Below, piece by piece: positions 2,683-55,733 of a stretch of 64,000 nucleotides of DNA. Under the pieces are notes generated by a model. It was not told the DNA's origin and made no database searches. It saw only the letters and a program-made list of their open reading frames with translations. The position numbers were made by a program, and so were the translations under genes. This stretch comes from a virus: positions 165,189-229,188 of IMG/VR virus record IMGVR_UViG_3300042691_055965; one strand, given 5' to 3'. The number at the start of each line of letters is the position of its first letter. Within the stretch, counting starts at the first letter, position 1.

Positions 2683-3591
2683 ATGGCACTTGGAGCTTAT
2701 GGTATAGTTAGACCGGCAGATGTTTCACCACAGGACGTTGAAATAATTTTGCATTACACACCATCAAGGGATGTAACTACAAATTTCGTATTAAAAAAAT
2801 TAAATGCAGCAAATATCTTAACACCATATTTTCACAATTCAAATACAGGAGGTAATGCAAATGTTGAAATCTTAGGTGGTTTATACAACTTAAGATTACC
2901 TGCTAGTGAATTCACAAATGTTGGAATTTATACCTTGTATATTCGTCCCGCAGAAATCAGAACATCGATTACGGATTGTGGTGTGTTATCGGCACTTCCA
3001 AACGTAAAAGGAATTATCATAGATGTTAATGATGTTCCACAACAGTTCAGAAATAAATTTGTCAACCAAGGTTTAGTAGGTTTTAGAATAGAGTACTTAA
3101 ATTCAGATGGAACAAAAATTCCTAATTTTTATAGAATCGTAACGTCTGCATTCTTTTGTGAACCTGTAATTTCGGATCAAACTAACACGTCACAGAAGGC
3201 TATAAGATACCGATATGTTGAAGGAAACAGTGATTTAATATTTTTAACACTTTCGCCTAGTTCATCACCAACAAACAAACCAAATGCGACACCATTTATT
3301 GGACAACCAAATCAAAATATTATAATTACAAATACATTTTTTAATCCAGTGACTATGGAGGTTCAAATTGCTAATTATGATATAGACACATTGGCGATTG
3401 CTTTGTATGGTAACCAAACTAAAAGTATTGATGATGGGATTTATACATTATACGACACTGCTGGAAATATATACAAACAATACAACTTATTTGAAGTTAG
3501 GGATAACTTTAATGAACTACTTTATGAAGTTAGACAAGATAGAGGTGCTAACATTGATTTTAGTAAAAACTTTACAAATATTATTAGTTAA
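2683..3591 (+). CDS. Tail/baseplate structural protein
   Basis: The 302-aa protein has no named domain that I can assign. The N-terminus (GAYGIVRPADVSP) and the mixture of short beta strands resemble structural proteins that sit beside the large baseplate protein in other T4-type phages of Bacteroidota. The stop overlaps the next ATG by one base (TAATGG at 3589-3594). A short overlapping frame at 3398-3604 is a shadow. Confidence 0.6.
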   Translation: MALGAYGIVRPADVSPQDVEIILHYTPSRDVTTNFVLKKLNAANILTPYFHNSNTGGNANVEILGGLYNLRLPASEFTNVGIYTLYIRPAEIRTSITDCGVLSALPNVKGIIIDVNDVPQQFRNKFVNQGLVGFRIEYLNSDGTKIPNFYRIVTSAFFCEPVISDQTNTSQKAIRYRYVEGNSDLIFLTLSPSSSPTNKPNATPFIGQPNQNIIITNTFFNPVTMEVQIANYDIDTLAIALYGNQTKSIDDGIYTLYDTAGNIYKQYNLFEVRDNFNELLYEVRQDRGANIDFSKNFTNIIS

Positions 3592-6572
3592 TGGCTCAAA
3601 ATAAATTCATATGTCCAAAACCCGCACCAGTTGGTTCAGGAACTTTTTCTGATGATTTAGTTGGATTTCAAGTGGTTGCTGGTGGAGGGTTGACGCAAGG
3701 AAACTTTCAGTATACTACGGCAGTTTTTGACAAGGTTAATCGAAGTTTTGGGACTGGAATTTTTTCAGAACCGTTCAACTTAGAAAACCTGAACATAGGG
3801 ACAATAGAAGAAACGAAGTTATTAATAAAAAAAAATTTTAGTGTTTATCCTAACTTTGATTTATCACAAATAACAAGTTTTTCTTTATATGGTTCACTTC
3901 AAAAAAGAATTTCAGCATCGGTAACAAAAATAATTAATTTTTTTCCTGCAGCAATTCAAATCGATCAACAAAACTATAGTTTAAATACTGGTTACACCGC
4001 TTTTAATATAGTTTATGATGGGGTAGCAGATGAAACGTCATTTGAAGTTGACGTACAGTTTTTTAAAAATCCATTCGATATTGATTACAGTATAAACGCT
4101 GCACAAAATATATCCACAAGACCTTTTAAAATTAGTGATTTTAGAAACCTTACAAAAAACTACGAAGGGTATTCATTATACACTACAGATTTAACAACAG
4201 AATATCAAATTTTAGATTTTGTTCCAACACAAACATTAACTGCTGGAACAATTCCTATTATTGTTAAGGGTAAACCATTTTCATCAACAACCACAACCCA
4301 AACGTTAATATTGAAACCAAATAACTTGAACACTGAAAAAATATTTCAAGATGCGTTTGATGAAGTTGAAGATTATTTGTTAAATAGGAATGGGTTTCCT
4401 AAATATAGTGCGAAATTCAAATATCCTGACTACGATAGTAATGGGAACTATATTATGATTAATAATATTGTTACATGGAAGTTAGATGGTGTTTGGAACT
4501 TGGATATTGTCACATCGAATTTTGACAATTATTTAACAACACTTCAAGATATTTCAGAAAGGTTAGATCAGTTTAAAACCAATTTGATAAGTAGGTTTTT
4601 AACTTCAGGTAGTTTGAAAGAATTTGATACTCCCGATCAAAGATTGGAAAAAGTCCTTCAAATTTATGGTAGAAGTTTTGATGAAACAAAAAAGTTTATT
4701 GATTCTTTAAGTAATATTACATCAGTAAATTATATTGTTGGAAACGATATTCCATCACAATTGTTAAGTAATTTAGCGAAAACATTAGGATGGAACACCG
4801 ACATTTCACCAATAACTAATGAAAAGTTATTGGAGTCAATTTTTACAACAACAAATGATGTAATTTATCCTGGACAATCTAAAGAACAAACACCCGCAGA
4901 ATTAAATTATCAGTATTATAGAAACTTAATTTTAAATTCTGCTTTTTTATTCAAATCTAAAGGAACGAGAAAATCAATTGAATACATTCTAAGGATGGTA
5001 GGTGCGCCTGAAGCATTAATTGAATTCAATGAATATATTTACATTGCTGATCAGAAAATTTCAACGGATGAATTTTTCGAAGAATACATTACAATATCGG
5101 GTGGTACTAAATATGTTGAAACACCTGCACTTTTATCAAATAATACTTTTAAAATATGGGGAGTTCAATATACTGCATTTACAACAAATGGGCAAATTTT
5201 CAATGTAAATACAGATTTACCTGACTACCCAATAGATACTGATACTGGTTTCCCTCAAAGAGCTGTTTACACTGATGATTATTTCTTTCAAAAAGGGTCA
5301 GGGTGGTTTGAAGTGACACCTGAACACCGTTCACCTGAAGAAATAAGTTATTCTACATCTGATTTAAATTCACAAATACCTGTCATAAATTCTGTCCTTA
5401 CACCATTTACCTATGGAAAAGAATATTTAGATAGGTATCGGTCTTTTCCATTTATGGATTTAGGATTCAACATTACAAAAGTAATTGATAACAAGAAAAG
5501 TTGGGTAACAAATCAAGTTGGTTTACGAAAAAATCTTCAAGATTTAGCGGCTACAAATTATATAATTGAAGATGATAGACTTGCAATAAATGTTAAAAAC
5601 ATGGAAGTTTATTTGAATATGGGACAAGGTATAACGTATGACATTTGGAATATGTCTTCCACATATGGTTATCCAATACCAAACAGTGGGTTTACTTCAC
5701 CATATCCATCACCAGGAAATATCGATTGGACATACATTGATCCTAAACCGAATCAAAAAACATTTTTTGAATTTGCTCAAAATTTCTTTAATAATTTCAT
5801 TAATGTAAGAAATAGACAATATATATCCGATGGTAAAACAGGCGGATACCCAACACTACAGTCAATATTTTGGAAATACATCAACAGTGATCAGTCGTTG
5901 AATATTCCAAACAACGAATTCACATATCAAAAAATGATTGATTTTACTTTGAGTTTGGGTGACTATTGGGTTAGATTAGTTGAACAATTTGTTCCGGCAA
6001 CCACTTTGTGGAATACTGGACAAAAAATGGATAACTCTATTTTTCACAGACAAAAATATGTTTGGAGACGACAAAGAGGGTGTACCGTCACACCTCTTGT
6101 TGTTCCATGTTTTCCATGTACATATAATGGTGAACCATACACATATGATTGCATCGATCAAACTACTACTTGTGAATTACCATTATTCGATCCAATAGAC
6201 GTGTTGACAGAAAGTACTTTACAAGTTACCAATAATCTAACAAATTGTAATTTCAATAACTTGGAATCCAATTGGTATGTTATAGTATCATTAACGAATT
6301 TGGTTACTAATCAAGAAGATATTTTAATTAATGAATATTTTTATACAGGATATGGTCCGAATGCTATAGATAATATAAACGGTAACCCATTGACATACTT
6401 TGATGTTATAAATGCAATAGACAATAAACTACAGTATTTATATCAATACGGATTGAATTACTATTTTAGTGGTGGTTCACTAATAATTAGTAATTCTTCT
6501 TGTTATGCGGATTTCACGGATAAACTACTAAATCTAAAAATAGGTTTGGACATTAATATTGTTTGTGCATAA
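3591..6572 (+). CDS. Large baseplate/tail protein
   Basis: The 993-aa protein has, around residues 440-480, a block reading FKSKGTRKSIEYILR followed by MVGAPE. This resembles the segment of P2 gpI-type tail proteins, which join the baseplate to the tail. Residues 230-400 hold helical segments with regular Leu and Glu. The C-terminal 150 residues carry a Cys-rich patch (CFPCTYNGEPYTYDC) and end in a separate beta-rich module. Size and position just before the fibre genes suggest a baseplate wedge or fibre-attachment protein. Family assignment is by partial motif only. Confidence 0.6.
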   Translation: MAQNKFICPKPAPVGSGTFSDDLVGFQVVAGGGLTQGNFQYTTAVFDKVNRSFGTGIFSEPFNLENLNIGTIEETKLLIKKNFSVYPNFDLSQITSFSLYGSLQKRISASVTKIINFFPAAIQIDQQNYSLNTGYTAFNIVYDGVADETSFEVDVQFFKNPFDIDYSINAAQNISTRPFKISDFRNLTKNYEGYSLYTTDLTTEYQILDFVPTQTLTAGTIPIIVKGKPFSSTTTTQTLILKPNNLNTEKIFQDAFDEVEDYLLNRNGFPKYSAKFKYPDYDSNGNYIMINNIVTWKLDGVWNLDIVTSNFDNYLTTLQDISERLDQFKTNLISRFLTSGSLKEFDTPDQRLEKVLQIYGRSFDETKKFIDSLSNITSVNYIVGNDIPSQLLSNLAKTLGWNTDISPITNEKLLESIFTTTNDVIYPGQSKEQTPAELNYQYYRNLILNSAFLFKSKGTRKSIEYILRMVGAPEALIEFNEYIYIADQKISTDEFFEEYITISGGTKYVETPALLSNNTFKIWGVQYTAFTTNGQIFNVNTDLPDYPIDTDTGFPQRAVYTDDYFFQKGSGWFEVTPEHRSPEEISYSTSDLNSQIPVINSVLTPFTYGKEYLDRYRSFPFMDLGFNITKVIDNKKSWVTNQVGLRKNLQDLAATNYIIEDDRLAINVKNMEVYLNMGQGITYDIWNMSSTYGYPIPNSGFTSPYPSPGNIDWTYIDPKPNQKTFFEFAQNFFNNFINVRNRQYISDGKTGGYPTLQSIFWKYINSDQSLNIPNNEFTYQKMIDFTLSLGDYWVRLVEQFVPATTLWNTGQKMDNSIFHRQKYVWRRQRGCTVTPLVVPCFPCTYNGEPYTYDCIDQTTTCELPLFDPIDVLTESTLQVTNNLTNCNFNNLESNWYVIVSLTNLVTNQEDILINEYFYTGYGPNAIDNINGNPLTYFDVINAIDNKLQYLYQYGLNYYFSGGSLIISNSSCYADFTDKLLNLKIGLDINIVCA

Positions 6573-9268
6573 TGGCTTGTATTTCGGGATTTACACTTGG
6601 TGGTTATTATAGTTATGTAGATTGTTGTGGTTTGGTTCAGGCGGGGGTTTCACCTGGACTTGAAAATGTTTGTGTAAGTGCATCAACTTCAGGAACATCA
6701 ATTGGGGTTTTACTTGATAGCGGTTCAACCTGTACGCAAAACTGTAATCAAGGACCTTTAAGTTATGTGTTTACTGTAACTGGGGTTTGTGGTAACCCAT
6801 CAGGGACTGTAACTATTCAATCTTTTGGTGGTATACCTCCGTATACTATTGATAATATTACTCCTGGAAGTTTATCAGCACAAACAAGTTCATCAGATAT
6901 CACTTTTACTGGTTTAACAGGTGGTACTTATGTCTTTAGATTAAATGACTCATTAGGTATACAAAATAATGAAATTTTATTTAATGTAGAAATTTCTGAT
7001 TGTTTTGTTGCGACAATAAATAATACAGATGGAACAACTTGTGGTAGCCAAAATGGTAGTTTTTCTATAGATGTAACTTCTACTGCCGCACCATATAATA
7101 TAGTTCTTTATAAAAATAATGCAATATTTTCGACATTTTTAACAAACACGGTTCCTTATAATGTTACATCATTAGATGAAGGAATATATTATGCAACTGT
7201 TTTTGATTATGGTATGGTAAGTGCCGTGACGGATAATGTTGTTATAAACCCAAGTAGTGGAACTACATTTGGTATATGGAAAGTTAATACATCTAACTGT
7301 GTACCTAATTCAGGAAAACTTGCGGTTACTGGATTGACAGGTAATGGACCTTATAGTTTTTTATGGTCTAATGGTGAAACAACACAAATTATTACTGGAC
7401 TTACTGTCGGAACTTACACAGTTACTGTCACTGATTTTTATGGTTGCGAAACTGTTGCGTCTGAAACGGTTGGTGTTGCTAATCCTTTAGGTGTAGGTTT
7501 AATTACTTCAGTTAACCCGTCTTGTTTTGATTCAAATGGTTCGATTACTGTTCAACTTACAGGAGGAACCGCTCCTTATACGATATCCGCTAATACAGGA
7601 TATCAAACTTTTACCTTAAGTGATACATTTACCGTACCAAATTTACCTACAGGTCCCTATAACATTTTGGTTAAAGATGCAAATCTTTGTCCTTTATTAG
7701 TAAACGCTTCTTTGACAACCGTAAATGGTTTTGACATTATAAGTACAAACATTACAAATACAACGTGTAATGGTAATGACGGTGAAGTGAATATTGTTTT
7801 AACTGGAATACCTCCATTCTTATTTCAATTAACAGCGCTTACAAACAATTCGATATCAACGCAATTTTCTTCAAATTTAAACACTACATTTAGTAATTTA
7901 AATTCGGGAAATTATTTATTGTCCATTTCAGGGCAATCAAGTGGATGTGAATTTATACAACCAATAACTATTCAAAATCAACAGAATTTCCAAGTTACAG
8001 CAACGACAATTGATAGTTCATGTGGAAGTGCTTCTGGATCGGTTATTATAGAAGTCGGAACAGGGTACACGTCACCTCTTGATTATTACCTTATTGACAA
8101 TCAAAATACTCAATCTATAATCGATTATCCTTTTTCATCTTTTACCTTCACATCTATTCTACCTGGAAATTATACAGTCCAAGTAGTTGATGGTAATAAC
8201 TGTACCGTATCAATTCCTGTCACAGTAGGTGCTGGTTCAAATTTTGTCAGTAACGTGATTACAACAAACTGTGTTTCAGGACAAGATGGTATTGCTCAAG
8301 TCGTCATATATGATGGGGTGCCGCCTTTTACTTATAGTTGGCAAGGAGTATTATCCGCTCAAACAGGTTCTACTGTTACAAATTTAAGTGGTGGTACTTA
8401 CACTGTTTCGGTTACAGATGCTAGTGGATGTACAAACTTTCATAATTTTACAATAGTATGTGGTTTCAATAGTTATAGTGGGTCGACAACATATCTTATA
8501 TGTGAAAGAGATTTTATCACAACAAGTGGAACTAAAAGAGGAATACCGGAAATGGTAAGTGAAGGTTTCTTGGATTTAACGACAGGGTACACTAATTGTA
8601 TTTTAAATTCAGCGTCCGTGACTTGTCAAATTACATTGAACGGAAGTGCGTTTACACAAACAATAGTTTTTTGGAATGACGCATCATGGCAAAGTGCAAT
8701 AGAAACAATATTAGGTAGTATTCCTGAAATAGGACAGTACGAAGTTAATTTATTAAATAATACTTTATATATAGAGTCAAATTGTCAGGGAGGAATTGAT
8801 CCATTAGGTGAAACTGATTTTACATTAGAATTGGTTGTAGATTATGACATTAGTTGTGCTGAAATTGCACCTACACCGACACCTACACCTACGCCAACAC
8901 CTACGCCAACACCTACACCTACGCCAACACCTACACCAACACCTTCGCCAACGCCTACTTATACATCAACAACGTGGTATTCTAATTCTGTTGTGTTTAG
9001 TACTGCAAACGCAACAAATCATTGTTTAACATTCCCTGATGATTGTAATGTGAATTTTTATACAAGTTCAGTGAGTTTAAATGTTGGTGATATTTTATAT
9101 GATGATCCATTACTGACTAATGATTCTGGAAATGTTGCGGTAAATTATGGACCATTTGGTGGTGGTTGGGGATGGATATATCTAACAGATACCTGTCCTA
9201 TATCAAGTACAATTTACCTCGTACAATTAAGAAGTAATGGTGAAATATTAGACATACAAACTTGTTAA
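6572..9268 (+). CDS. Tail fibre/adhesin with SprB-type repeats and Pro-Thr linker
   Basis: The 898-aa protein starts at ATG 6572 (MACISG), overlapping the upstream stop; an in-frame TTG at 6563 is less likely. It holds about seven tandem repeats of 70-90 residues with the SprB signature: a Cys near the start, a G-G/T-x-PPY/PFT block, and a GTYTVTVTDxxGC-like end. SprB repeats occur in the gliding adhesin of flavobacteria. A (Pro-Thr)n linker at about residues 766-796 leads to a C-terminal domain of about 100 residues, which is paralogous to the C-terminus of the gene ending at 15657. It is probably a receptor-binding fibre. Confidence 0.75.
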   Translation: MACISGFTLGGYYSYVDCCGLVQAGVSPGLENVCVSASTSGTSIGVLLDSGSTCTQNCNQGPLSYVFTVTGVCGNPSGTVTIQSFGGIPPYTIDNITPGSLSAQTSSSDITFTGLTGGTYVFRLNDSLGIQNNEILFNVEISDCFVATINNTDGTTCGSQNGSFSIDVTSTAAPYNIVLYKNNAIFSTFLTNTVPYNVTSLDEGIYYATVFDYGMVSAVTDNVVINPSSGTTFGIWKVNTSNCVPNSGKLAVTGLTGNGPYSFLWSNGETTQIITGLTVGTYTVTVTDFYGCETVASETVGVANPLGVGLITSVNPSCFDSNGSITVQLTGGTAPYTISANTGYQTFTLSDTFTVPNLPTGPYNILVKDANLCPLLVNASLTTVNGFDIISTNITNTTCNGNDGEVNIVLTGIPPFLFQLTALTNNSISTQFSSNLNTTFSNLNSGNYLLSISGQSSGCEFIQPITIQNQQNFQVTATTIDSSCGSASGSVIIEVGTGYTSPLDYYLIDNQNTQSIIDYPFSSFTFTSILPGNYTVQVVDGNNCTVSIPVTVGAGSNFVSNVITTNCVSGQDGIAQVVIYDGVPPFTYSWQGVLSAQTGSTVTNLSGGTYTVSVTDASGCTNFHNFTIVCGFNSYSGSTTYLICERDFITTSGTKRGIPEMVSEGFLDLTTGYTNCILNSASVTCQITLNGSAFTQTIVFWNDASWQSAIETILGSIPEIGQYEVNLLNNTLYIESNCQGGIDPLGETDFTLELVVDYDISCAEIAPTPTPTPTPTPTPTPTPTPTPTPTPSPTPTYTSTTWYSNSVVFSTANATNHCLTFPDDCNVNFYTSSVSLNVGDILYDDPLLTNDSGNVAVNYGPFGGGWGWIYLTDTCPISSTIYLVQLRSNGEILDIQTC
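8870..8959 (+). repeat. Pro-Thr coding hexanucleotide tract
   Basis: CCTACA/CCAACA-type units code for about 15 Pro-Thr pairs with one Pro-Ser. The unit length of 6 nt means gain or loss of units keeps the frame. Near-identical tracts occur at 14611-14769 and 15061-15138. Confidence 0.9.
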
Positions 9269-29904: not shown

Positions 29905-30552
29905 ATGTTTGTGGTTAATAGAATTATACGTAAATTTGTTTTGTGGTTAACAACAAAGAAAATGAGTAGAAAAAAAACTAATACAAAACAAAAAAAAGAC
30001 CCCCAATATATGTTATTTGTTTTTGGGGATTTAGCCGAATCAAGTGAGGTTACACAATACATTTCTAGTCAATTACTTACAATTGTTAGTTCACAGTTTT
30101 TGAAATATACTTATGGTGAATATGGAATTGTTTTCAACTTTAGAAGTGATGAAACATTCGATGACTTGAAAGAATATGTTGATATGGCTCTTTCAGATTT
30201 AACCGACCAGTACTTCTTATTAGAAACAACAAAAAACTTTGAAATAAAAATGCCAAGAAAGATGAAAAAAGATTTCTTGAACATAGACAACCAATTAAGT
30301 AACGATATACCAATTGCGGGTTCTATTTCGAAAGAAGAAAAACCTAAATTTAATTGGGATGAGAAAAAAATTATTACTTTTGATTTTTTATTACCGGTAA
30401 TCAATCAAAATTTTGAAAACATAACAGAAGAAATAGTAGAAGAAGAACCGTCAATAGACGACATTTTAGATAAAATATCAGAGAGAGGAATAGATTCATT
30501 AACAAAAAGAGAAACAGAAATTTTAGAGAATTATGGAAAGAGAAAGAATTGA
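29905..30552 (+). CDS. Hypothetical protein with DUF6576-like C-terminus
   Basis: The 215-aa protein has a basic N-terminal 35 residues and a globular middle. Its C-terminal segment, SIDDILDKISERGIDSLTKRE, closely resembles the short helical DUF6576 motif found at the C-terminus of Bacteroidota rhomboid-family proteins. The 3' end overlaps the sigma factor gene by 20 nt, so the two are co-expressed. The function is unknown. Confidence 0.6.
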   Translation: MFVVNRIIRKFVLWLTTKKMSRKKTNTKQKKDPQYMLFVFGDLAESSEVTQYISSQLLTIVSSQFLKYTYGEYGIVFNFRSDETFDDLKEYVDMALSDLTDQYFLLETTKNFEIKMPRKMKKDFLNIDNQLSNDIPIAGSISKEEKPKFNWDEKKIITFDFLLPVINQNFENITEEIVEEEPSIDDILDKISERGIDSLTKRETEILENYGKRKN

Positions 30553-31348
30553 AGAAGTAAAAAACAGTAATCCTTTAAATCAGGATGAAATCCAAATTTA
30601 TTTGAAAGACATTCGAAAGTTAAAAGTAATGACACCTGAAAGGGAAAAGATTCTTTCAGAAAGAATCACGTCAAATAATTGTACAGCAAGAGAAAGGGAA
30701 CTTATCTATAAAGAACTGTTAGAGGGTAATTTGAGATTCGTGATTACTGTTGCTAAACAATATCAAAATCAAGGAATTGATTTATCTGATTTAATTGCTG
30801 AAGGTAATTTTGGTTTAATGAAGGCTATCAAAAACTTTGATTGGAGTAAAAAGAATCGTTTTATTTCATACGCAGTTTGGTGGATTAAACAATCTATCTT
30901 ACAATCACTTAATGAAAATTCAAGAACAATCAGACTACCAGTGAACGTTGTTCAAGATATGCAAAAAGAAAAAAGACAAATCGAAAATACAAATAAAGAA
31001 TTGTCTAGTAAGTTTGCAAATCTACCTAAAATTATAGATTTGGATATGCACATCAATGAAGATGGTGATACATTGATTGATGTTATAAAAAATGAAAATG
31101 TTGAATCCCCTGATGAAATTTTTTCTACACAAGATACTTTAAAAGAAAAAATGATGTCAATTATGTCTGTTTTGGATGAAAGAGAAAGAACAATAGTTGA
31201 AGATTACTATGGTTTGTCAGGAACACCAAGAACATTAGAAGACATTGGTATGGACTTTGGTTTAACAAAAGAAAGGGTAAGGCAAATTAAAGAAAAGGCA
31301 CTTCGCAAGTTAAGAAACGAATGTTCTGAATTATTTGATTATTTATAA
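30533..31348 (+). CDS. RNA polymerase sigma-70 factor (RpoD-like)
   Basis: The 271-aa protein has all main sigma regions: 1.2 (DEIQIYLKDIRKLKVMT), 2.1-2.4 (NLRFVITVAKQY, DLIAEGNFGLMKAI, FISYAVWWIKQSILQ), 3 (SRTIRLPVNVV) and 4 (DERERTIVEDYYGL, then the helix-turn-helix TLEDIGMDFGLTKERVRQIKEKALRKLR). The length is close to the short primary sigma factors of Bacteroidota. T4 uses a much smaller, divergent sigma (gp55) for late genes; here a nearly complete host-type factor seems to be carried instead. It may direct late transcription. Confidence 0.92.
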   Translation: MERERIEEVKNSNPLNQDEIQIYLKDIRKLKVMTPEREKILSERITSNNCTARERELIYKELLEGNLRFVITVAKQYQNQGIDLSDLIAEGNFGLMKAIKNFDWSKKNRFISYAVWWIKQSILQSLNENSRTIRLPVNVVQDMQKEKRQIENTNKELSSKFANLPKIIDLDMHINEDGDTLIDVIKNENVESPDEIFSTQDTLKEKMMSIMSVLDERERTIVEDYYGLSGTPRTLEDIGMDFGLTKERVRQIKEKALRKLRNECSELFDYL

Positions 31349-31353
31349 AAAAA

Positions 31354-31385
31354 TTTGGCAGAATCAAACCTTTATCATATCTTTG
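31354..31385 (+). promoter_or_regulatory. Bacteroidota-type promoter (TTTG-N20-TATCTTTG)
   Basis: TTTG 31354-31357 and TATCTTTG 31378-31385 are separated by exactly 20 nt, matching the -33/-7 consensus. It precedes ATG 31410. The sequence around the -7 box (31373-31395) is repeated without change at 31809-31831. Confidence 0.8.
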
Positions 31386-48603: not shown

Positions 48604-48795
48604 ATGGGTTTTAATAAAAGATTTTTGAATAAAAAAAGTATAATCAATAATGTTCATGATATTTTAAGTTACCTTAATGTAGATGCTTTTTACATTAACG
48701 ATGACTTTTCCTATGATGTTTATCGATTGTACATTGAAGGTAAATCAGAAGAAGAAATACTAAAATACATTAATGAAAATAAAGATGAAGATTAA
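48604..48795 (+). CDS. Small hypothetical protein
   Basis: The 63-aa protein is helical with an acidic C-terminus (GKSEEEILKYINENKDED). It lies 17 nt after the previous gene and overlaps the glutamine synthetase frame by 23 nt if that gene starts at 48773. No family is recognised. Confidence 0.55.
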   Translation: MGFNKRFLNKKSIINNVHDILSYLNVDAFYINDDFSYDVYRLYIEGKSEEEILKYINENKDED

Positions 48796-50002
48796 ACTTG
48801 AATACGTGTGGCTTGACGGGTACACACCAGAACCAAACCTTAGAAGTAAAGTTAAAATAGTTAATCATGGCGATGTTAAAGACGCTATGATTACAGGTAA
48901 ATTTCCTATGTGGAATTTTGACGGGTCGTCCACCAATCAGGCGCAAACAGATAGTTCAGACTGTTTATTAAAACCAGTTCGACATTATATGATTGATACT
49001 TTGTCGACGGTATATGTTTTTTGTGAAGTTTTAAATGCAGATGGTACGCCACATCAATCAAATACACGTTCCAAATTAATTGGTGAAGAAAAAAATATTT
49101 GGTTTGGTTTTGAACAAGAATATTTTATTTTCGATAGAAAGAACAAATGTATTTTGGGGCATGACGAAAATAACTTGGAACCGCAAGGTAAATATTACTG
49201 TGGTGTTGGTGAATATGTTGCTGGTAGAAGTTTTGTAAATGAACACCTACATATGTGTTTGAATTATGGAATCGACATCACAGGAATAAATGCAGAAGTT
49301 GCACTTGGACAATGGGAATATCAAGTGTTTTCAAAAGGAAAATTAAAGGCGGGTGATGACTTATGGATGACTAGATATTTCTTACATAAAATTGCAGAAA
49401 AATACGATTACAAAATTGAGTTACATCCAAAACCTTTACAAAAAGGTGAATGGAATGGTTCAGGACTTCACACCAATTTTTCGACAGAAAAAATGAGGGA
49501 AAAAGGTGGTGAAGAATATTTCAAATCATTATTTTCAAGTTTAGAAACACGACATTGGAAACATATAGAAGATTATGGTTCTTCGAATGATTTAAGACTT
49601 ACTGGAAAATTTGAAACACAATCAATAAACAAATTCAGTTGGGGTATTTCAGATAGGGGTGCATCAATTAGGGTTCCACAAACAACAGCAAATGAATGGA
49701 AGGGATATTTGGAAGACAGACGACCTGCATCAAACGCCGACCCATATAAAATCATATATCAATTATGTGAATCAATCAAAAATGCTGAAGCAATTAATGA
49801 TATAAAACACAAAATGAATTTCAAAGGAAACTTTGATGAAATTATCAATAGATACAACGGTGTGCTTCAAACCGAAGAGTTATTGGAAGAATATCAAAAT
49901 GATGATAATTTTGAAGTGGAAAAAGAAACTATGGTAGAAAATAGAAATAATATATCAACAACAGAAATAGAATTTAATTTAAATGGAAATGACACTAAAT
50001 GA
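48773..50002 (+). CDS. Glutamine synthetase, type II (GSII)
   Basis: The protein is 409 aa from ATG 48773; ATG 48785 (residue 5) is equally possible. GSII landmarks are in order: FPMWNFDGSSTNQA (N-terminal beta-grasp), WFGFEQEYFIFD, GINAEVALGQWEYQV, GEWNGSGLHTNFS, SNDLRLTGKFETQSINKFSWG and GYLEDRRPASNADPY. All main catalytic positions appear kept. A C-terminal extension of about 60 residues beyond the usual GSII end is present. It would make glutamine from glutamate and ammonia, perhaps for nucleotide synthesis during infection. Confidence 0.9.
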   Translation: MKIKMKIKLEYVWLDGYTPEPNLRSKVKIVNHGDVKDAMITGKFPMWNFDGSSTNQAQTDSSDCLLKPVRHYMIDTLSTVYVFCEVLNADGTPHQSNTRSKLIGEEKNIWFGFEQEYFIFDRKNKCILGHDENNLEPQGKYYCGVGEYVAGRSFVNEHLHMCLNYGIDITGINAEVALGQWEYQVFSKGKLKAGDDLWMTRYFLHKIAEKYDYKIELHPKPLQKGEWNGSGLHTNFSTEKMREKGGEEYFKSLFSSLETRHWKHIEDYGSSNDLRLTGKFETQSINKFSWGISDRGASIRVPQTTANEWKGYLEDRRPASNADPYKIIYQLCESIKNAEAINDIKHKMNFKGNFDEIINRYNGVLQTEELLEEYQNDDNFEVEKETMVENRNNISTTEIEFNLNGNDTK

Positions 50003-50168: not shown

Positions 50169-50382
50169 ACAAGTAAACCACCCAAATCATTATGGTGGTG
50201 AAACAAACATTTACGAAGCAATCAAAGTAATTGATGCTTGGGACTTAGGGTTTTCACTTGGTAACACGGTTAAATATATTTCAAGAGCAGGCAAAAAGAA
50301 TAAAGATAAAGAATTGGAAGATTTAAAAAAGGCACTTTGGTATTTAAATCACCACATTGAAACATTAGAAAAAAATGATTGA
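50158..50382 (+). CDS. DUF3310 family protein
   Basis: The 74-aa protein shows the whole DUF3310 pattern: VNHPNHYGG, then YEAIKVIDAWDLGFSLGNTVKYISRAGKK, then a C-terminal Leu-rich helix (LEDLKKALWYLNHHIE). The family is common in phages and has been proposed to be nucleotide-kinase related, but its activity is not established. It overlaps the methyltransferase start by 8 nt. Confidence 0.88.
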   Translation: MENEQVNHPNHYGGETNIYEAIKVIDAWDLGFSLGNTVKYISRAGKKNKDKELEDLKKALWYLNHHIETLEKND

Positions 50383-51223
50383 AACAGGAAAAATTATAAA
50401 TGGTGATTGTATTGAAGTAATGAAAACATTACCTGAATGTTCTGTCGATTTGATTGTTACATCACCACCCTATGGTGTTGGAATTGATTACGACGTTCAT
50501 GAAGATGATGTACCATTTGATGAATATTTGGTGTTTGCCAAAAATTGGTTAACTGAAGCGTATAATCTATTAAAAGATGACGGTAGAATTGCTTTGAACA
50601 TTCCATACGAAATCAATAGACAGAAGAAAGGGGGAAGAATTTTCTTTGTTTCAGAAATGTGGCAAATAATGAAAGAAATTGGGTTTGGGTTCTTTGGTAT
50701 CGTGGATTTAGAGGAACAATCACCTCATCGAAGTAAGACAACTGCTTGGGGATCTTGGATGAGTCCTAGTTCACCATATATTTATAATCCAAAGGAATGT
50801 GTCATTTTGGCATACAAAAAACACCACATTAAAAAGGTGAAAGGCGAACCGCAGTGGAAAGGGACACCAACTGAAATTCAACAGGAGGATGGAACCATAA
50901 AAACTAAAGTTGTGTATGAAGAAACAGATAAGAAGGAGTTTATGGAGCTTGTTTTTGGTCAGTGGAATTACTTTGCAGATACTAAATCACTCACCAAGGC
51001 AACGTTTTCGATGGACATCCCAACGAAAGCAATCAAAATACTATCCTACAAAAACGATGTGATTTTAGATCCATTTGCCGGTAGTGGTACAACATTAGTG
51101 GCGGCTGAAGTGTTAGGTAGACGATGGTTAGGTATTGAATTATCACCAAATTATAGTGAAATTGCAAAAACAAGGGTTGAATATTTCAAAACATTACAAA
51201 CAATACAAGAACTCCCACTTTAA
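50375..51223 (+). CDS. DNA methyltransferase, TSPPY type
   Basis: The 282-aa protein has GDCIEVMKTLPECSVDLIVTSPPYG at the N-terminus (motif IV) and DPFAGSGTTLVAAEVLGRRWLGIE near the C-terminus (motif I). This is the beta-class order for N4-cytosine or N6-adenine methylation. No endonuclease candidate adjoins it, so it is a solitary methyltransferase. The terminator at 51214 overlaps its last codons. Confidence 0.88.
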   Translation: MIETGKIINGDCIEVMKTLPECSVDLIVTSPPYGVGIDYDVHEDDVPFDEYLVFAKNWLTEAYNLLKDDGRIALNIPYEINRQKKGGRIFFVSEMWQIMKEIGFGFFGIVDLEEQSPHRSKTTAWGSWMSPSSPYIYNPKECVILAYKKHHIKKVKGEPQWKGTPTEIQQEDGTIKTKVVYEETDKKEFMELVFGQWNYFADTKSLTKATFSMDIPTKAIKILSYKNDVILDPFAGSGTTLVAAEVLGRRWLGIELSPNYSEIAKTRVEYFKTLQTIQELPL

Positions 51224-51260: not shown

Positions 51261-53507
51261 ATGAAAATTATAATCACAGAATCGCAATACAGACAAATAA
51301 TTAAAGAATCAGGTATCAGGGATATTAAAAAAATCGCAGAAAGATACCCTAAAGCAAAAATTTACTTCCATCAAGACTTAGATGGTGTAACTACCGCAAT
51401 TGCAATGAAAAACTATCTTGAACAAAACGGCATCAAAGTAGTTGATGCTGAAGTGATTCAATATGGTGATAAAGAGTTTTCAGTTAAAAAACTTGACGCA
51501 GAAGGTGATGTGATGCCAGTGTTAGTTGACTTTGCACACGGCAAACCAATGTTTGTCATTCATACCGATCACCACGATACACAAGCTGGTGTTGAATCAG
51601 GAACTGCAACAAGTTTCAAGGCATCTAGATCGAATGTTGAAACAATATCCCAAACGATATCACCAAAAGATATTTTTCCATCTGATGACTTACTTCTTAT
51701 ATCTACTGTCGATTCTGCCAATTTCCTTGCACATGATATAACTTTTGACATGGTAATGAATTATATTTTCAAAATGGATAAGGATCAATCACTTCAAAGA
51801 AATAAAATGATGATGGGATTGGTGACAAACAAATTGTTACTTGCATTTAAAAACAAACCAAAATTTTTAGAAACATTGGTTATGAAAAGTAACCCATCTT
51901 TGTTAAGTATTTTAAATAATATTAGAGATATAATGAAGGTGGAAGGTTATGCTGAACCTGAAGAACTAGAACAAAACAAACAGAATTATATTGAAAAAAT
52001 GAAAGAATTCCCTAAAGTACAGGGTAAAGTTATTGTACAGTATGGTGGGGGTTCTATGACAAAACCAGGTTCATATGATAGATATACGCCGTTTAAGAAT
52101 AATCCTGATGCTGACTTCTTGGTAATTGCTTGGCCGACAGGAATTGTTCAAGCTTCTTGTAATGCATATAAAGGTGAACGTTCACTTAAAGGTGTTAATC
52201 TTGGTGAAATGAAAGATGAGGTTCTTAAAAAGTTTGAACCGGAATTAAGTAAATTAAAAATAAGTTTTGGTACATTAAAAAGAGTTTCTGAATCAAAGGC
52301 TGGTGAGGGTTCCGTTGGTTTTACTCTCAAAGATTTTTTAGCGATATATGGAAATGCACCATCATTGAAGATTGAAGGAAATAAAGAAGATACATTAAGT
52401 GAAATAAATAAACTTTCAGATAAGTTATATTCCACTTTAACTTTCGAAGAAAAAATGAATTTGGAAAAAGCCAGTGTTAATGGTATGGATGTCGTGAAAG
52501 CAAATTCAGGTGGACATAAATGTATTACAAACATTTCTGGTTTAAGTTATCTTTACACAAACATTAGAAGGTATAAAGATGACGAATTAAAGATGATACA
52601 AAAATATGGTGGATCAAACAATTTTGTTTTGGACATCCAAAGAAAGTTGAAGTCGATGAAAAAAAATCAAGAACTTACTGAAAAGCAAAAAACTGCAGCA
52701 GTAAACCAAATCAAAAAAGAAATAGAATCAGGAAGGTATAACCCAGACATAGACAATAAGGTAACATCATATGTAGATATGATTAAGAAAATTCAACAAG
52801 AGTTTGTAAAAGTACTTGAAAGTTATATAGAAAAAGAATCCATCAACGAAAATGTCGTTGAAAAAAAAAAGTACTATATAGACGATAGTGACATTAAAGG
52901 TGCGGGAAAAGGGGTATTTGCAAAAACAAATATCAAAAAAGGTGAACGTATCGGATTGCTTCACACAATAAAAAAAATGGGTGTCAATTATGATTTTACT
53001 GAATTGGGTAAAATGCATAATCATAGTGGTAAACCCACTTGTCATAATGAAAAAGTTGGAAATAAAAGATACTTAGTCGCATCCAAAGATTTAAAAAAAG
53101 GTGAAGAACTGACAACCAATTACAGATTACAACCAGATTTGGAACAACCAAAAGAAGGTTGGGGTAATTTGAAAGAAGAAAAAGAATTTAAACCACACAT
53201 AGATGGTTACCGTACATATTCACCATTCAAAGATTTGCCATACATAATAGTCAAAGGGAATGGTATTGACTGTGATAATATTGTTCATGACTTGGTTTTA
53301 GTAGGTGACAATAAAAAGGTTAAATACTGTAAAAAAAACACTGGAGTTTATAAAATTACAGGAGCAAGTAAAATTGTAGAATTACCTGTTGATAAAACTG
53401 AAGATGTTGAAGAAATATTTAAAAGTCCTGAAAATGTGGAACTGTGGGTTAAAGAAAAAATTAAATCAGTGGATAAAAAAGGGGAAATTAGAAGAATGAT
53501 GAATTAA
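51261..53507 (+). CDS. DHH phosphoesterase-SET domain fusion with head-leader-like N-terminus
   Basis: The 748-aa protein begins KIIITESQYRQIIKES (I-K-E leader-like). Residues 30-200 carry a DHH phosphoesterase core: FHQDLDGVTTA (HxDxDG), VLVDFAHG, HTDHHDT (DHH) and STVDSANF. Residues about 540-625 are a SET-type methyltransferase domain: GAGKGVFAKTNIKKGE, MHNHSGKPTCH (NHS motif), VASKDLKKGEELTTNYR. A further 100-residue C-terminal domain is unassigned. I know of no such fusion. If injected, it could cut a nucleotide signal or modify host proteins. Confidence 0.75.
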   Translation: MKIIITESQYRQIIKESGIRDIKKIAERYPKAKIYFHQDLDGVTTAIAMKNYLEQNGIKVVDAEVIQYGDKEFSVKKLDAEGDVMPVLVDFAHGKPMFVIHTDHHDTQAGVESGTATSFKASRSNVETISQTISPKDIFPSDDLLLISTVDSANFLAHDITFDMVMNYIFKMDKDQSLQRNKMMMGLVTNKLLLAFKNKPKFLETLVMKSNPSLLSILNNIRDIMKVEGYAEPEELEQNKQNYIEKMKEFPKVQGKVIVQYGGGSMTKPGSYDRYTPFKNNPDADFLVIAWPTGIVQASCNAYKGERSLKGVNLGEMKDEVLKKFEPELSKLKISFGTLKRVSESKAGEGSVGFTLKDFLAIYGNAPSLKIEGNKEDTLSEINKLSDKLYSTLTFEEKMNLEKASVNGMDVVKANSGGHKCITNISGLSYLYTNIRRYKDDELKMIQKYGGSNNFVLDIQRKLKSMKKNQELTEKQKTAAVNQIKKEIESGRYNPDIDNKVTSYVDMIKKIQQEFVKVLESYIEKESINENVVEKKKYYIDDSDIKGAGKGVFAKTNIKKGERIGLLHTIKKMGVNYDFTELGKMHNHSGKPTCHNEKVGNKRYLVASKDLKKGEELTTNYRLQPDLEQPKEGWGNLKEEKEFKPHIDGYRTYSPFKDLPYIIVKGNGIDCDNIVHDLVLVGDNKKVKYCKKNTGVYKITGASKIVELPVDKTEDVEEIFKSPENVELWVKEKIKSVDKKGEIRRMMN

Positions 53508-53568
53508 TCGTTTGACTAATTATCATTTTTGATTTATAATTACAAAAGAATTTAATCACATTAAAAAG

Positions 53569-53576
53569 TATTTATA
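53569..53576 (+). promoter_or_regulatory. TATTTATA motif abutting a start codon
   Basis: The last A of the motif is the first base of ATG 53576, so any transcript from it would need another start, or the match is fortuitous. Confidence 0.25.
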
Positions 53577-53722
53577 TGACAGAAACAACAAAAGAAGTTG
53601 AAAACGTTATTTACTCTTATGTAAATGACAGAAACGAAAAAGTATACACACCTAACTTGGAATTTGCCCACATTATGGCAAAAAAGTATGGTACTGATGA
53701 TGTCTTCGTCGAAAAAAATTAA
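53576..53722 (+). CDS. Small hypothetical protein (48 aa)
   Basis: The frame MTETTKEVENVIYSYVNDRNE... to stop TAA 53720-53722 has coherent composition: an acidic start, a central YTPNLEFAHIMAKKYG segment and an acidic end. It lies between the DHH-SET gene and the promoters of the long RNA. No family is recognised. Confidence 0.55.
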   Translation: MTETTKEVENVIYSYVNDRNEKVYTPNLEFAHIMAKKYGTDDVFVEKN

Positions 53723-53740
53723 AAAAATTTTACAAGGTAC

Positions 53741-53771
53741 TTGTCAAATCAAAATAAAAGACTTAACTTTG
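53741..53771 (+). promoter_or_regulatory. Host-type promoter, distal copy
   Basis: TTG 53741-53743 and TAACTTTG 53764-53771 are separated by 20 nt. It closely resembles the second copy about 100 nt downstream (both have a GTACTTG-CAAAT start, AAATAAAAG and TAACTTTGTAAAA). Confidence 0.72.
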
Positions 53772-53840
53772 TAAAAGATTTGAAACTAAAGGTGATGAAA
53801 GATACTCGTTGTCGAATCGAAAAAAAAAGTTCACAAAGTA

Positions 53841-53872
53841 CTTGACAAATAGAAATAAAAGTCGTAACTTTG
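53841..53872 (+). promoter_or_regulatory. Host-type promoter, proximal copy, of long RNA
   Basis: CTTG 53841-53844 and TAACTTTG 53865-53872 are separated by 20 nt. The expected start of the transcript is near 53878, just before a perfect hairpin. Confidence 0.78.
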
Positions 53873-53877
53873 TAAAA

Positions 53878-54834
53878 CAAATTCGGAAACGTCCGAAATC
53901 GTTCTTTGAAAATTGAATTATCCGTTCAGGAGTAAGTAATGAAACTGATAAAGATATTCGGCGGTGTATAGTCGTTAAATAAACCACGAAAGTGGGATAA
54001 AGTGAATCAGAAGTGTAACTGATTTGCGGTTTGGGTAACCGAACTTGAGTACACAAGCGGGATACCGTATAACCTTTAGTACCGAGGGCAACGCTGTAGG
54101 GAAAGTGGTTAGACGATTGGGCGATGTGGGTCGTTCGATTGAGGTGGGAACATCAATAGGAAGAACCCGTAGGAATATTGCAAAAAATAAGATTATCCAA
54201 TTTTATTATTGCGTTTTCCAATATGATAGGATACTTAAAACCGAAAGGTATGATAACAAACAGGTGGTGCTGACATTATCCTTGATAAACTCCTACCAAG
54301 GGGTTAATCACGAAGTAGTCTTGAAATATGGAAATGGGGACATTTCACGGAGTAGTTGAGTATCGATTCGTTCAAAAGATGGGTTGGCTCGGGTGGCGGA
54401 CCACTACTTCGAAAATCCACGACACAATACTTATGATTTAAAAAGTTGAATCAAATTAACTAAGAAAGCTATAAGGAAAAGTGTCCGTCAGGTTTGGATG
54501 AAAGGTGACTACATAGTAATGAGCTGTTCATTGCACACAGAGATCCCAAGTCAATGTGTAATTATCCGAAAAACCTTTAGTCCCGCAAGGACGAACTGGG
54601 GAGGCATCCTCGGAAAGAGTCAAGTAAGATGAGAGTAATTCAAACCTCAAGGAGTGGTTTACCTAAATAACCGTCATTGAGTTTTACTTTCCAAAAGAAA
54701 GTGGATACGAAGGGAAACAATAATACTTCTAAAGAAACTCACAAAAAACTGTAATCTCAGGTTTTTATTTTAGGTTAAAAATCTTATAAGGAATTTATTG
54801 GGGAAACAACAAATAGTTGCTTCCCTTTTTTTTT
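53878..54834 (+). ncRNA. Large structured non-coding RNA (about 950 nt)
   Basis: Between strong promoters and a strong terminator lies a gene-free stretch that is clearly GC-richer than the surrounding coding DNA. Perfect hairpins are visible: TTCGGA/TCCGAA (53882-53897), CCAC-GAAA-GTGG with a GNRA loop (53984-53995), AATCAG/CTGATT (54005-54024), CGGTT/AACCG (54027-54041), CTTG/CAAG (54044-54057), GTCC/GGAC (54580-54592) and ACTTTC/GAAAGT (54686-54702). A 37-38-nt element occurs twice (54065-54102 and 54566-54602). Size and phage setting recall the giant RNAs GOLLD and ROOL, but I cannot assign it. Confidence 0.75.
54801..54834 (+). terminator. Intrinsic terminator of long RNA
   Basis: GGGAA-A-CAAC / GTTG-C-TTCCC pairs around an AAATA loop, with one internal mismatch, followed by nine T. 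Confidence 0.9.
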
Positions 54835-54867
54835 ACCATAGAGGTATAAATTTTGAAAAAAATTATT

Positions 54868-55161
54868 ATGGAAATGTTATATTTTTCATTCGGGTTTCTT
54901 ACCGTAATTGCTTTGATATTCATCTGTGTTTTCATCGTGGGAATTATCAAAATCTTTAGACTTAAAAAGGAAGTTGATAATCAAAAAGAAACTTTAAGAC
55001 ATGAATTTGAATGGTTTAGTCGTTCATTACACGAAAAAGAACGTGATTGGAGGGAATCGTTGGATAGTGTTCACCGAAATATAGATAGGATAACACAAGA
55101 AACAATCAATTATATTGATAAAAAAATCGAAAAAACAAATAAACAAAAAAAAGAAAAATGA
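54868..55161 (+). CDS. Membrane-anchored coiled-coil protein
   Basis: The 97-aa protein starts at ATG 54868 (MEMLYFSFG); an in-frame TTG at 54853 is less likely. One membrane segment (about residues 4-30) is followed by a coiled coil to the end with regular His/Glu/Arg (LRHEFEWFSRSLHEKERDW, then DRITQETINYIDKKIEK). The topology is N-anchored with a long soluble helix, as in spanin-like or membrane scaffold proteins. The function is unknown. Confidence 0.6.
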   Translation: MEMLYFSFGFLTVIALIFICVFIVGIIKIFRLKKEVDNQKETLRHEFEWFSRSLHEKERDWRESLDSVHRNIDRITQETINYIDKKIEKTNKQKKEK

Positions 55162-55165
55162 TATT

Positions 55166-55192
55166 AATCCCATCATCTGATGGGATTTTTTT
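55166..55192 (+). terminator. Intrinsic terminator
   Basis: AATCCCATCA / TGATGGGATT forms a long stem with a tight loop, followed by seven T. Confidence 0.88.
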
Positions 55193-55203
55193 GTAGATTG
55201 ATA

Positions 55204-55211
55204 TATTTATA
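55204..55211 (+). promoter_or_regulatory. TATTTATA motif
   Basis: It follows a terminator and lies 50 nt before ATG 55254, farther than usual. Confidence 0.4.
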
Positions 55212-55253
55212 ATTAAATAACAAATAAATAAACAAAAAAATTGAAAAAAAGTT

Positions 55254-55733
55254 ATGAAAAGAATTGTTAGATTAACAGAATCAGATCTTGCAAGAATAGT
55301 CAAAAGAGTTATTAATGAAGGTAGCGAAAAAGCGGTATTGGATGCGGGTTGGAACAGGGACGCAACAAAAATGGCAGTTGCATTCGGTACTCCCACGGCA
55401 TCTGATGGGGGTGTATCATCTGGAATCCAAGGTGTAAAAGTAGTGTTTGATGGGCTTATTTATAATGCATCCAATAAAGTAACATATGAAGGAAAAATGG
55501 CGTTCTATGGTCGTTGTGACAAAAATGGTAACCCTGGTGCTATGTCAGGTGTTGATTTGAATGATGTACTGAGTGGAGGTTCATATTATCTTTTCGGTTA
55601 TGGTGGAAAAGTTGACACCGTTGCTAGAAATTGGTGTAAAACAAAGACAGGTGTTAAACCAACAGGTTATGTAGATTCCGATTTTGTTAGTATGGCAAAA
55701 GAAGATATGGCTAAAGGACTTAAAAGATCTTAA
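55254..55733 (+). CDS. Putative internal head protein with LTES...VINE leader
   Basis: The 159-aa protein starts KRIVRLTESDLARIVKRVINEG, the clearest example of the leader seen on many proteins here. The following domain is Gly-rich with beta strands (GIQGVKVVFDGLIY, GKMAFYGRCDKNG) and two Cys. No enzyme motif is recognised. Cleavage after I-N-E would leave a mature protein of about 137 residues. A terminator follows immediately, so it is a single-gene transcript. Confidence 0.62.
   Translation: MKRIVRLTESDLARIVKRVINEGSEKAVLDAGWNRDATKMAVAFGTPTASDGGVSSGIQGVKVVFDGLIYNASNKVTYEGKMAFYGRCDKNGNPGAMSGVDLNDVLSGGSYYLFGYGGKVDTVARNWCKTKTGVKPTGYVDSDFVSMAKEDMAKGLKRS

Follow-up and report, generated by a model that had tools for sequence, protein, structure and literature searches.

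Here we show, at the level of sequence, that positions 53841-54834 of the analysed window (64,000 nt, positions 165189-229188 of a 229,188-base virus record) hold a GOLLD RNA with both of its domains and the known contacts of the GOLLD cage, headed by tandem host-type promoters, a leader hairpin and a boxA motif, and closed by a terminator. GOLLD is among the largest non-coding RNAs of phages and its cage structure has been solved; to our knowledge, no function has been assigned to it. The way this gene begins is the way a ribosomal RNA operon begins, and we consider it very likely that it is expressed like one, where its expression, the binding of factors to boxA and the formation of a cage are what we infer from the sequence. 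An rRNA-style boxA leader on GOLLD has apparently not been reported before.

Identity and extent of the RNA

According to the first-pass annotation, the phage has a long, structured, non-coding RNA of unknown family, with no basis for assigning it to GOLLD; an Rfam search and covariation in related contigs were proposed as checks, and conserved protein coding was named as a refutation. The outcomes of all three strongly support a structured non-coding RNA, but the family is a known one: positions 54348-54763 match the Rfam GOLLD model (RF02032) over its full length (model 1-416 of 416; 313.7 bits against a cut-off of 150; E 5.9e-89), on the plus strand like all features of the gene given below, and the Rfam search found this single copy in the whole virus record. 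By this match, the RNA at 53841-54834 is GOLLD, a new member of a family already known. ROOL gave no Rfam match in the stretch, neither at the gathering cut-off nor at E<1, and group I/II introns and rRNA gave none in 53400-55300 up to E 1, so that these identities were rejected. The layout of a conserved 3’ domain and a less conserved 5’ domain is that of GOLLD, and the predicted transcript measures ~950 nt, compared with a size criterion of at least ~800 nt. Furthermore, the single-strand fold of the stretch beats that of shuffled sequences (z -3.5), and its G+C content of 0.36-0.40, against about 0.23-0.37 in the flanks, agrees with the earlier remark that it is GC-richer than its surroundings. 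The absence of a credible ORF was likewise borne out: in 45 of 46 relatives, in-frame stop codons interrupt the best frame inside the RNA (104 aa, 54045-54359), and many of the differences in length are not multiples of three, so that protein coding was rejected.

Since RF02032 covers the conserved 3’ domain only, separate proof was required for the upstream half of the RNA. We aligned 47 loci over the leader and the 5’ domain (53960-54347), which yielded a fold of 20 predicted helices with compensatory changes in 84 of 103 predicted pairs. Of the cells in these helices, 97.5% are paired, versus 79.9% after shuffling, and the covariation score reaches 0.596, versus 0.242 when shuffled and 0.08-0.11 when the partners are slid. 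Helix 2 is the GNRA hairpin already noticed at first sight (53984-53995), with an invariant GAAA loop (53988-53991) kept in the 47 aligned loci, 100% pairing, and compensatory changes in 3 of its 4 pairs. Pattern scans found 66 viral contigs carrying both domains. When 81 non-redundant GOLLD loci were chosen from viral contigs by the 3’-domain pattern alone, the profile detected the 5’ domain in 78, which makes it the standard companion of the 3’ domain in these viruses rather than something special. As judged from covariation and from this company, the remainder of the ~950-nt predicted transcript is the GOLLD 5’ domain.

By blastn, two ~640-kb uncultured phages share both halves of the RNA. 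Two contigs are other pieces of the same phage (L159 and L160, 99.99-100% identity), and the next closest relative is 88% identical over the RNA (L172). No plasmid relatives were found, and a pattern scan of bacterial genomes gave four matches, which we regard as chance since none has an Rfam GOLLD match. The virus is large and, judging from promoter type and relatives, its host probably belongs to the Bacteroidota. Many related contigs keep, next to GOLLD, a neighbourhood with an N6/N4 DNA methyltransferase; in the window, such a gene lies at 50375-51223. The gene directly upstream of GOLLD (51261-53507) encodes a SET domain (E 7.9e-9) and a sub-threshold DHH-like N-terminus, and a phage-encoded glutamine synthetase is found at 48773-50002 (Pfam Gln-synt_C, E 4.9e-21; Gln-synt_N).

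In its published structure, GOLLD forms a 14-mer shell whose chains are joined by a set of named contacts (PMC12286853). We mapped these names onto the Rfam stems by inference, with L22 x J17/22 anchoring the numbering, and on this mapping the contacts of the cage appear to be kept with covariation. For the inter-subunit kissing contact B7 (L20 x J13/15), the GG at 54475-54476 pairs with the CC at 54546-54547 in loop L20, the two pairs being GC 42/TA 5 and GC 24/CG 23, and every row has standard pairs. The self-complementary dinucleotide of L21a (54585-54586), which forms the symmetric contact B8, is GC in 37 loci and CG in 7, while the hairpin is missing in 3; this GC/CG switch has been published (PMC12286853). 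In the published pseudoknot between J17/22 (AGG, 54650-54652) and L22 (CCU, 54662-54664), the central pair is GC 40/AT 7. A further pseudoknot strand (54395-54400) forms six pairs with 54484-54489, each of which occurs as several pair types among the loci. Apparent covariations of single pairs between the 5’ and 3’ domains were numerous, and stacked ones alone were retained. One of these is a long-range contact between a GUGG loop of the 5’ domain (54126-54129) and CCAC at 54417-54420, whose four pairs are 100% standard in 47 rows, with several pair types; it would join the 5’ domain to the edge of the linker by base pairs, within the same chain or between different ones. The linker itself (54421-54472) is A+T-rich and variable, with 30-55 nt among relatives, and its counterpart is disordered inside the cage (nt 497-538 in env-38; PMC12286853).

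Promoters, leader hairpin and boxA

The two similar host-type promoters recognised at first reading were both recovered by a pattern scan as TTG-N20-TAACTTTG, the Bacteroidota housekeeping type. The proximal promoter P2 (53842-53872) reads TTGACA ... TAACTTTG, with TTG at 53842-53844, TAACTTTG at 53865-53872 and a predicted start near 53879. The original limits of the RNA gene proved good, with the upstream promoter P1 (53741-53771; TTG 53741-53743, TAACTTTG 53764-53771, and the same 20-nt spacer) lying ~100 nt further upstream. The pattern TTG-N20-TANNTTTG occurs 9 times in the window versus 2.9 expected, a number reached in 0 of 100 shuffles, and in 55 of 75 loci a copy of TANNTTTG is found at most 60 nt ahead of boxA. 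Such tandem promoters are reminiscent of P1 and P2 of rRNA operons. P1 belongs to a duplicated promoter module that is also present in relatives. Downstream of it lies the leader segment GATGAAAGATACTCGTTGTC (53794-53813); a closely similar segment directly precedes boxA in five other loci (L062, L311, L334, L337 and L342), suggesting that promoter/leader modules are swapped or stacked. In L091, near 3235, the GOLLD leader is preceded at a distance of ~240 nt by a second set of promoter, hairpin and boxA, which looks like a duplication of leader modules. At the other end of the gene, the terminator was confirmed as a 10-pair hairpin (54800-54826; -11.8 kcal/mol, z -3.1) followed by a T run up to 54834. 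Elsewhere in the window, a phage-encoded factor of the sigma-70 family is found at 30533-31348 (Pfam regions 2 and 4), with promoter-like sites TTGGCAGA...TATCTTTG just downstream of its gene, at 31355 and 31791.

Between P2 and the 5’ domain, a small leader hairpin, TTCGGAAACGTCCGAA (53882-53897; -6.4 kcal/mol, z -2.4), occupies the place of the hairpin that precedes boxA in rRNA leaders. Its counterpart in relatives is TCGGAAANGTCCGA or TCAGGAAAAGTCCTG, with compensatory changes relative to the copy in the window, and in 71% of loci, versus 10% of shuffles, the 32 nt ahead of boxA reach a folding energy below -4 kcal/mol. The hairpin is followed by the putative boxA antiterminator motif GTTCTTTGAAA (53901-53911), ~30 nt after the -7 box of P2, which fits the core G[T/C]TCTTT[A/G]A within the predicted transcribed leader; an 11-mer scan found it once in the window versus 0.26 expected. 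As such, the order of two tandem Bacteroidota-type promoters, a small hairpin and GTTCTTTGAAA gives the gene the same start as an rRNA operon.

This arrangement is conserved. A boxA-like 9-mer is found 340-620 nt upstream of the 3’ domain in 76 of 81 GOLLD loci, compared with 5/77 and 5/73 (about 7%) in control zones of equal size (Fisher p about 1e-31), where the zone was set after a first motif scan and part of the 81 loci overlaps the discovery set; many loci from a later scan, new to the set, show boxA likewise. The core GTTCTTTGA is nearly invariant in 75 loci, while its flanks vary. The five loci in which boxA is missing are L011, L013, L313, L376 and L378. For the GOLLD of Acinetobacter phages (L013 and L014), the motif scans found no boxA, and L013 does have the 5’ domain. 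In L376, three 37-nt repeats with a spacing of 66 nt form a CRISPR-like mini-array (3840-4008) upstream of the GOLLD 5’ domain, between duplicated promoter-like repeats (3453-3614) and GOLLD.

The same motif heads ribosomal RNA in the presumed host group. Where the gamma-proteobacterial boxA consensus is GYTCTTTAANA (PMC5725501), rRNA operons on Bacteroidota plasmids carry GTTCTTTGAA[A/T] 122-223 nt before 16S in 7 of 8 cases. Within this probable host group, leaders with the motif were found in Persicobacter, Aureibacter, Segatella, Prevotella and Hymenobacter, and the Segatella examples have a hairpin before boxA; the Flammeovirga leader has no better copy than one with 2 mismatches.

boxA on other stable RNAs and alternative explanations

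The phage also carries a tmRNA gene outside the window (C1 45278-45697, minus strand; L137 5278-5697; Rfam RF00023, 97.3 bits, cut-off 47), and this gene is directly preceded by a boxA, AAGTTCTTTGAAAATAT. A slightly longer pattern, KTTCTTTGAMANWWT, which misses the GOLLD copy found by the 11-mer scan, has its single site in the whole record directly before the tmRNA gene. In an independent scan of viral contigs for the 17-mer GTTCTTTGACATATTGG, 61 of the 111 distinct contexts have the start of a tRNA no more than 80 nt downstream, against a base rate of 4.3%, and in 21 more it lies beyond 80 but within 400 nt. Contigs in which it heads tRNA arrays include L072, L084, L098, L132 and L186-L299. 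The presence of the motif before tRNA arrays and tmRNA indicates that, in these phages, it introduces stable RNAs and is not a part of the GOLLD fold.

This bears on the alternative that survives best, which takes the RNA as an ordinary GOLLD whose conserved GTTCTTTGA belongs to the RNA fold, pairing with another segment or another chain, and is no site for NusB and S10. That it falls within the transcript, with a spacing to the 5’ domain that changes rather little, would fit such a role. However, GTTCTTTGA is unpaired in the covariation-based consensus, lies between about 400 and 525 nt from the 3’ domain depending on the locus, and heads not only unrelated tRNA arrays and tmRNA, but also the 16S leaders of the host group. 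We therefore regard a role in the fold as improbable, and prefer the reading as an antitermination leader.

Several boxA motifs are followed by sequences other than known RNAs. One unclassified sequence is common to five contigs (L228 from 7062, plus strand; L284, L256, L237 and L259), with a consensus fold of -55.5 kcal/mol versus -20.7 +/- 4.5 kcal/mol for column shuffles and compensatory changes in 16 of 64 pairs; no Rfam match was found for it in these contigs, and it is possibly a new ncRNA family. In L208 (2036-3230, a 413-kb virus) and L249, ~1.1 kb without a known RNA separates boxA from the first tRNA of a large array; its consensus fold beats column shuffles, from two sequences only, and parts of it occur in L218, L262 and L296. 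From boxA onwards, L205 (minus strand, boxA 3044-3060) and L270 (from 12463, plus strand) have ~1.1 kb in common (nhmmer E 1e-149), a part in which no Rfam match was found. A permuted tmRNA (Rfam RF04321) lies at 6425-6701 on the minus strand of L218, a contig with a boxA-bearing tRNA array.

Many relatives of this GOLLD sit among tRNA genes, often beside tRNA-Met or tRNA arrays, and in several a tmRNA is no more than 2.7 kb away, which is a pointer to translation. If the cage served to deliver tRNAs of the phage, carried within the transcript or next to it, this could account for the adjoining tRNA genes. Against this, no tRNA genes were recognised in the window or in the rest of the 229-kb record, so that tRNA cargo cannot be general, although the record may be incomplete; that a GOLLD-bearing record should have a tmRNA and no recognised tRNAs limits the idea. 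Moreover, the linker has only 30-55 nt in this RNA and its aligned relatives, which is too short for a tRNA. A role as tRNA carrier is therefore unlikely, slightly more so than one of boxA in the fold. Nearness to tRNA islands has been described for GOLLD as frequent and not as required, and phage ICP1 likewise lacks tRNAs and has its own ~800-nt ncRNA (PMC7567579).

A still smaller chance is given to GTTCTTTGA acting as a promoter element in the DNA, or as a processing site of stable RNAs, instead of an antiterminator. In 12 of 108 tRNA-array cases, boxA directly follows a terminator hairpin and its T run with no room for a promoter between (in L072, L186, L194, L200, L204 and L281-L283), and its role there may be a different one from antitermination; GTTCTTTGACATATTGG also contains TTGACA. 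By inspection, however, no -10 box follows this TTGACA at the right distance, while a Bacteroidota -7 box lies ~30 nt upstream of the motif in 55 of 75 GOLLD loci, and rRNA operons carry the same sequence at the known position of boxA. That the gene is a decayed, functionless GOLLD is hardly credible: one Lactobacillus brevis prophage is reported to produce phage without need of its GOLLD (PMC7567579), but promoters, boxA, terminator, all domains and contacts are intact here, and covariation across relatives shows continuing selection.

Proposed mechanism and comparison with known systems

If the GOLLD gene is expressed like an rRNA operon, host RNA polymerase would start at P1 and P2, and the nascent leader would present boxA to NusB and S10 (NusE), which would bind and stay with the polymerase together with other Nus factors. 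The polymerase modified in this way would keep Rho off the ~950-nt untranslated transcript. Furthermore, the 5’ end would be tethered during transcription, which may help the two-domain RNA to fold, as has been proposed for rRNA, and the chains would then assemble into the GOLLD cage through L20, L21 and the 5’-domain contacts. The weakest step is the last one, that the cage acts on the translation apparatus during infection by holding or hiding ribosomes or their parts, which we put forward only tentatively and with considerable doubt.

The leader shared with rRNA operons suggests how such huge RNAs are made. A boxA before rRNA and CRISPR arrays raises the output of long untranslated RNA, and its addition raised the RNA of a CRISPR array about tenfold (PMC7862264). 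For rRNA, Nus factors have been proposed to be RNA chaperones, and it is disputed whether the Nus complex of E. coli mainly antiterminates there (PMC4807359). On balance, we think it probable that phages of the Bacteroidota place the antitermination leader of the host’s rRNA before their stable-RNA transcripts in general, whether these are GOLLD, tmRNA, tRNA arrays or certain structured RNAs that are unclassified. The Nus-modified polymerase responsible for ribosome synthesis would thus also transcribe and fold the giant cage RNAs, and during infection these may be in competition with rRNA for it. As such, the conserved boxA leader is a concrete and testable statement on the transcription and folding of GOLLD, which it ties to rRNA synthesis, and GTTCTTTGA after a promoter is a sequence tag by which stable-RNA genes of phages can be located without knowledge of their family.

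Compared with the GOLLD RNAs of Kretsch et al. 2025 (PMC12286853), the phage RNA agrees in the full-length match to the 3’ domain, the two domains, the size and the variable linker, and keeps the L20 x J13/15, L21a and L22 contacts. It differs in coming from a record without recognised tRNA genes, and in its Bacteroidota-type promoters and rRNA-type boxA leader; boxA is never mentioned in that paper, and searches of open-access text found no mention of a boxA linked to GOLLD. ROOL, which forms an octameric cage (PMC12286853), is likewise a large phage RNA, but one to which the stretch has no Rfam match. The ~800-nt orf-less transcript of ICP1 (PMC7567579) is similar as a large, abundant ncRNA of a phage without tRNAs, whereas ICP1 is a Vibrio phage and an assignment to GOLLD was not made there. 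A boxA before CRISPR arrays (Stringer et al. 2020, cited in PMC12691694 and PMC7862264), with the sequence GTTCTTTAAAA in Legionella, is a parallel insofar as a long untranslated RNA other than rRNA uses boxA, although the downstream RNA and the host are different and the boxA of GOLLD is borne by a phage. The closest likeness is to the rRNA leader that binds NusB and S10, where a promoter, a hairpin and GTTCTTTGAA[A/T] also precede a long, structured, untranslated RNA; in the phage, the RNA behind the putative boxA is GOLLD and not 16S.
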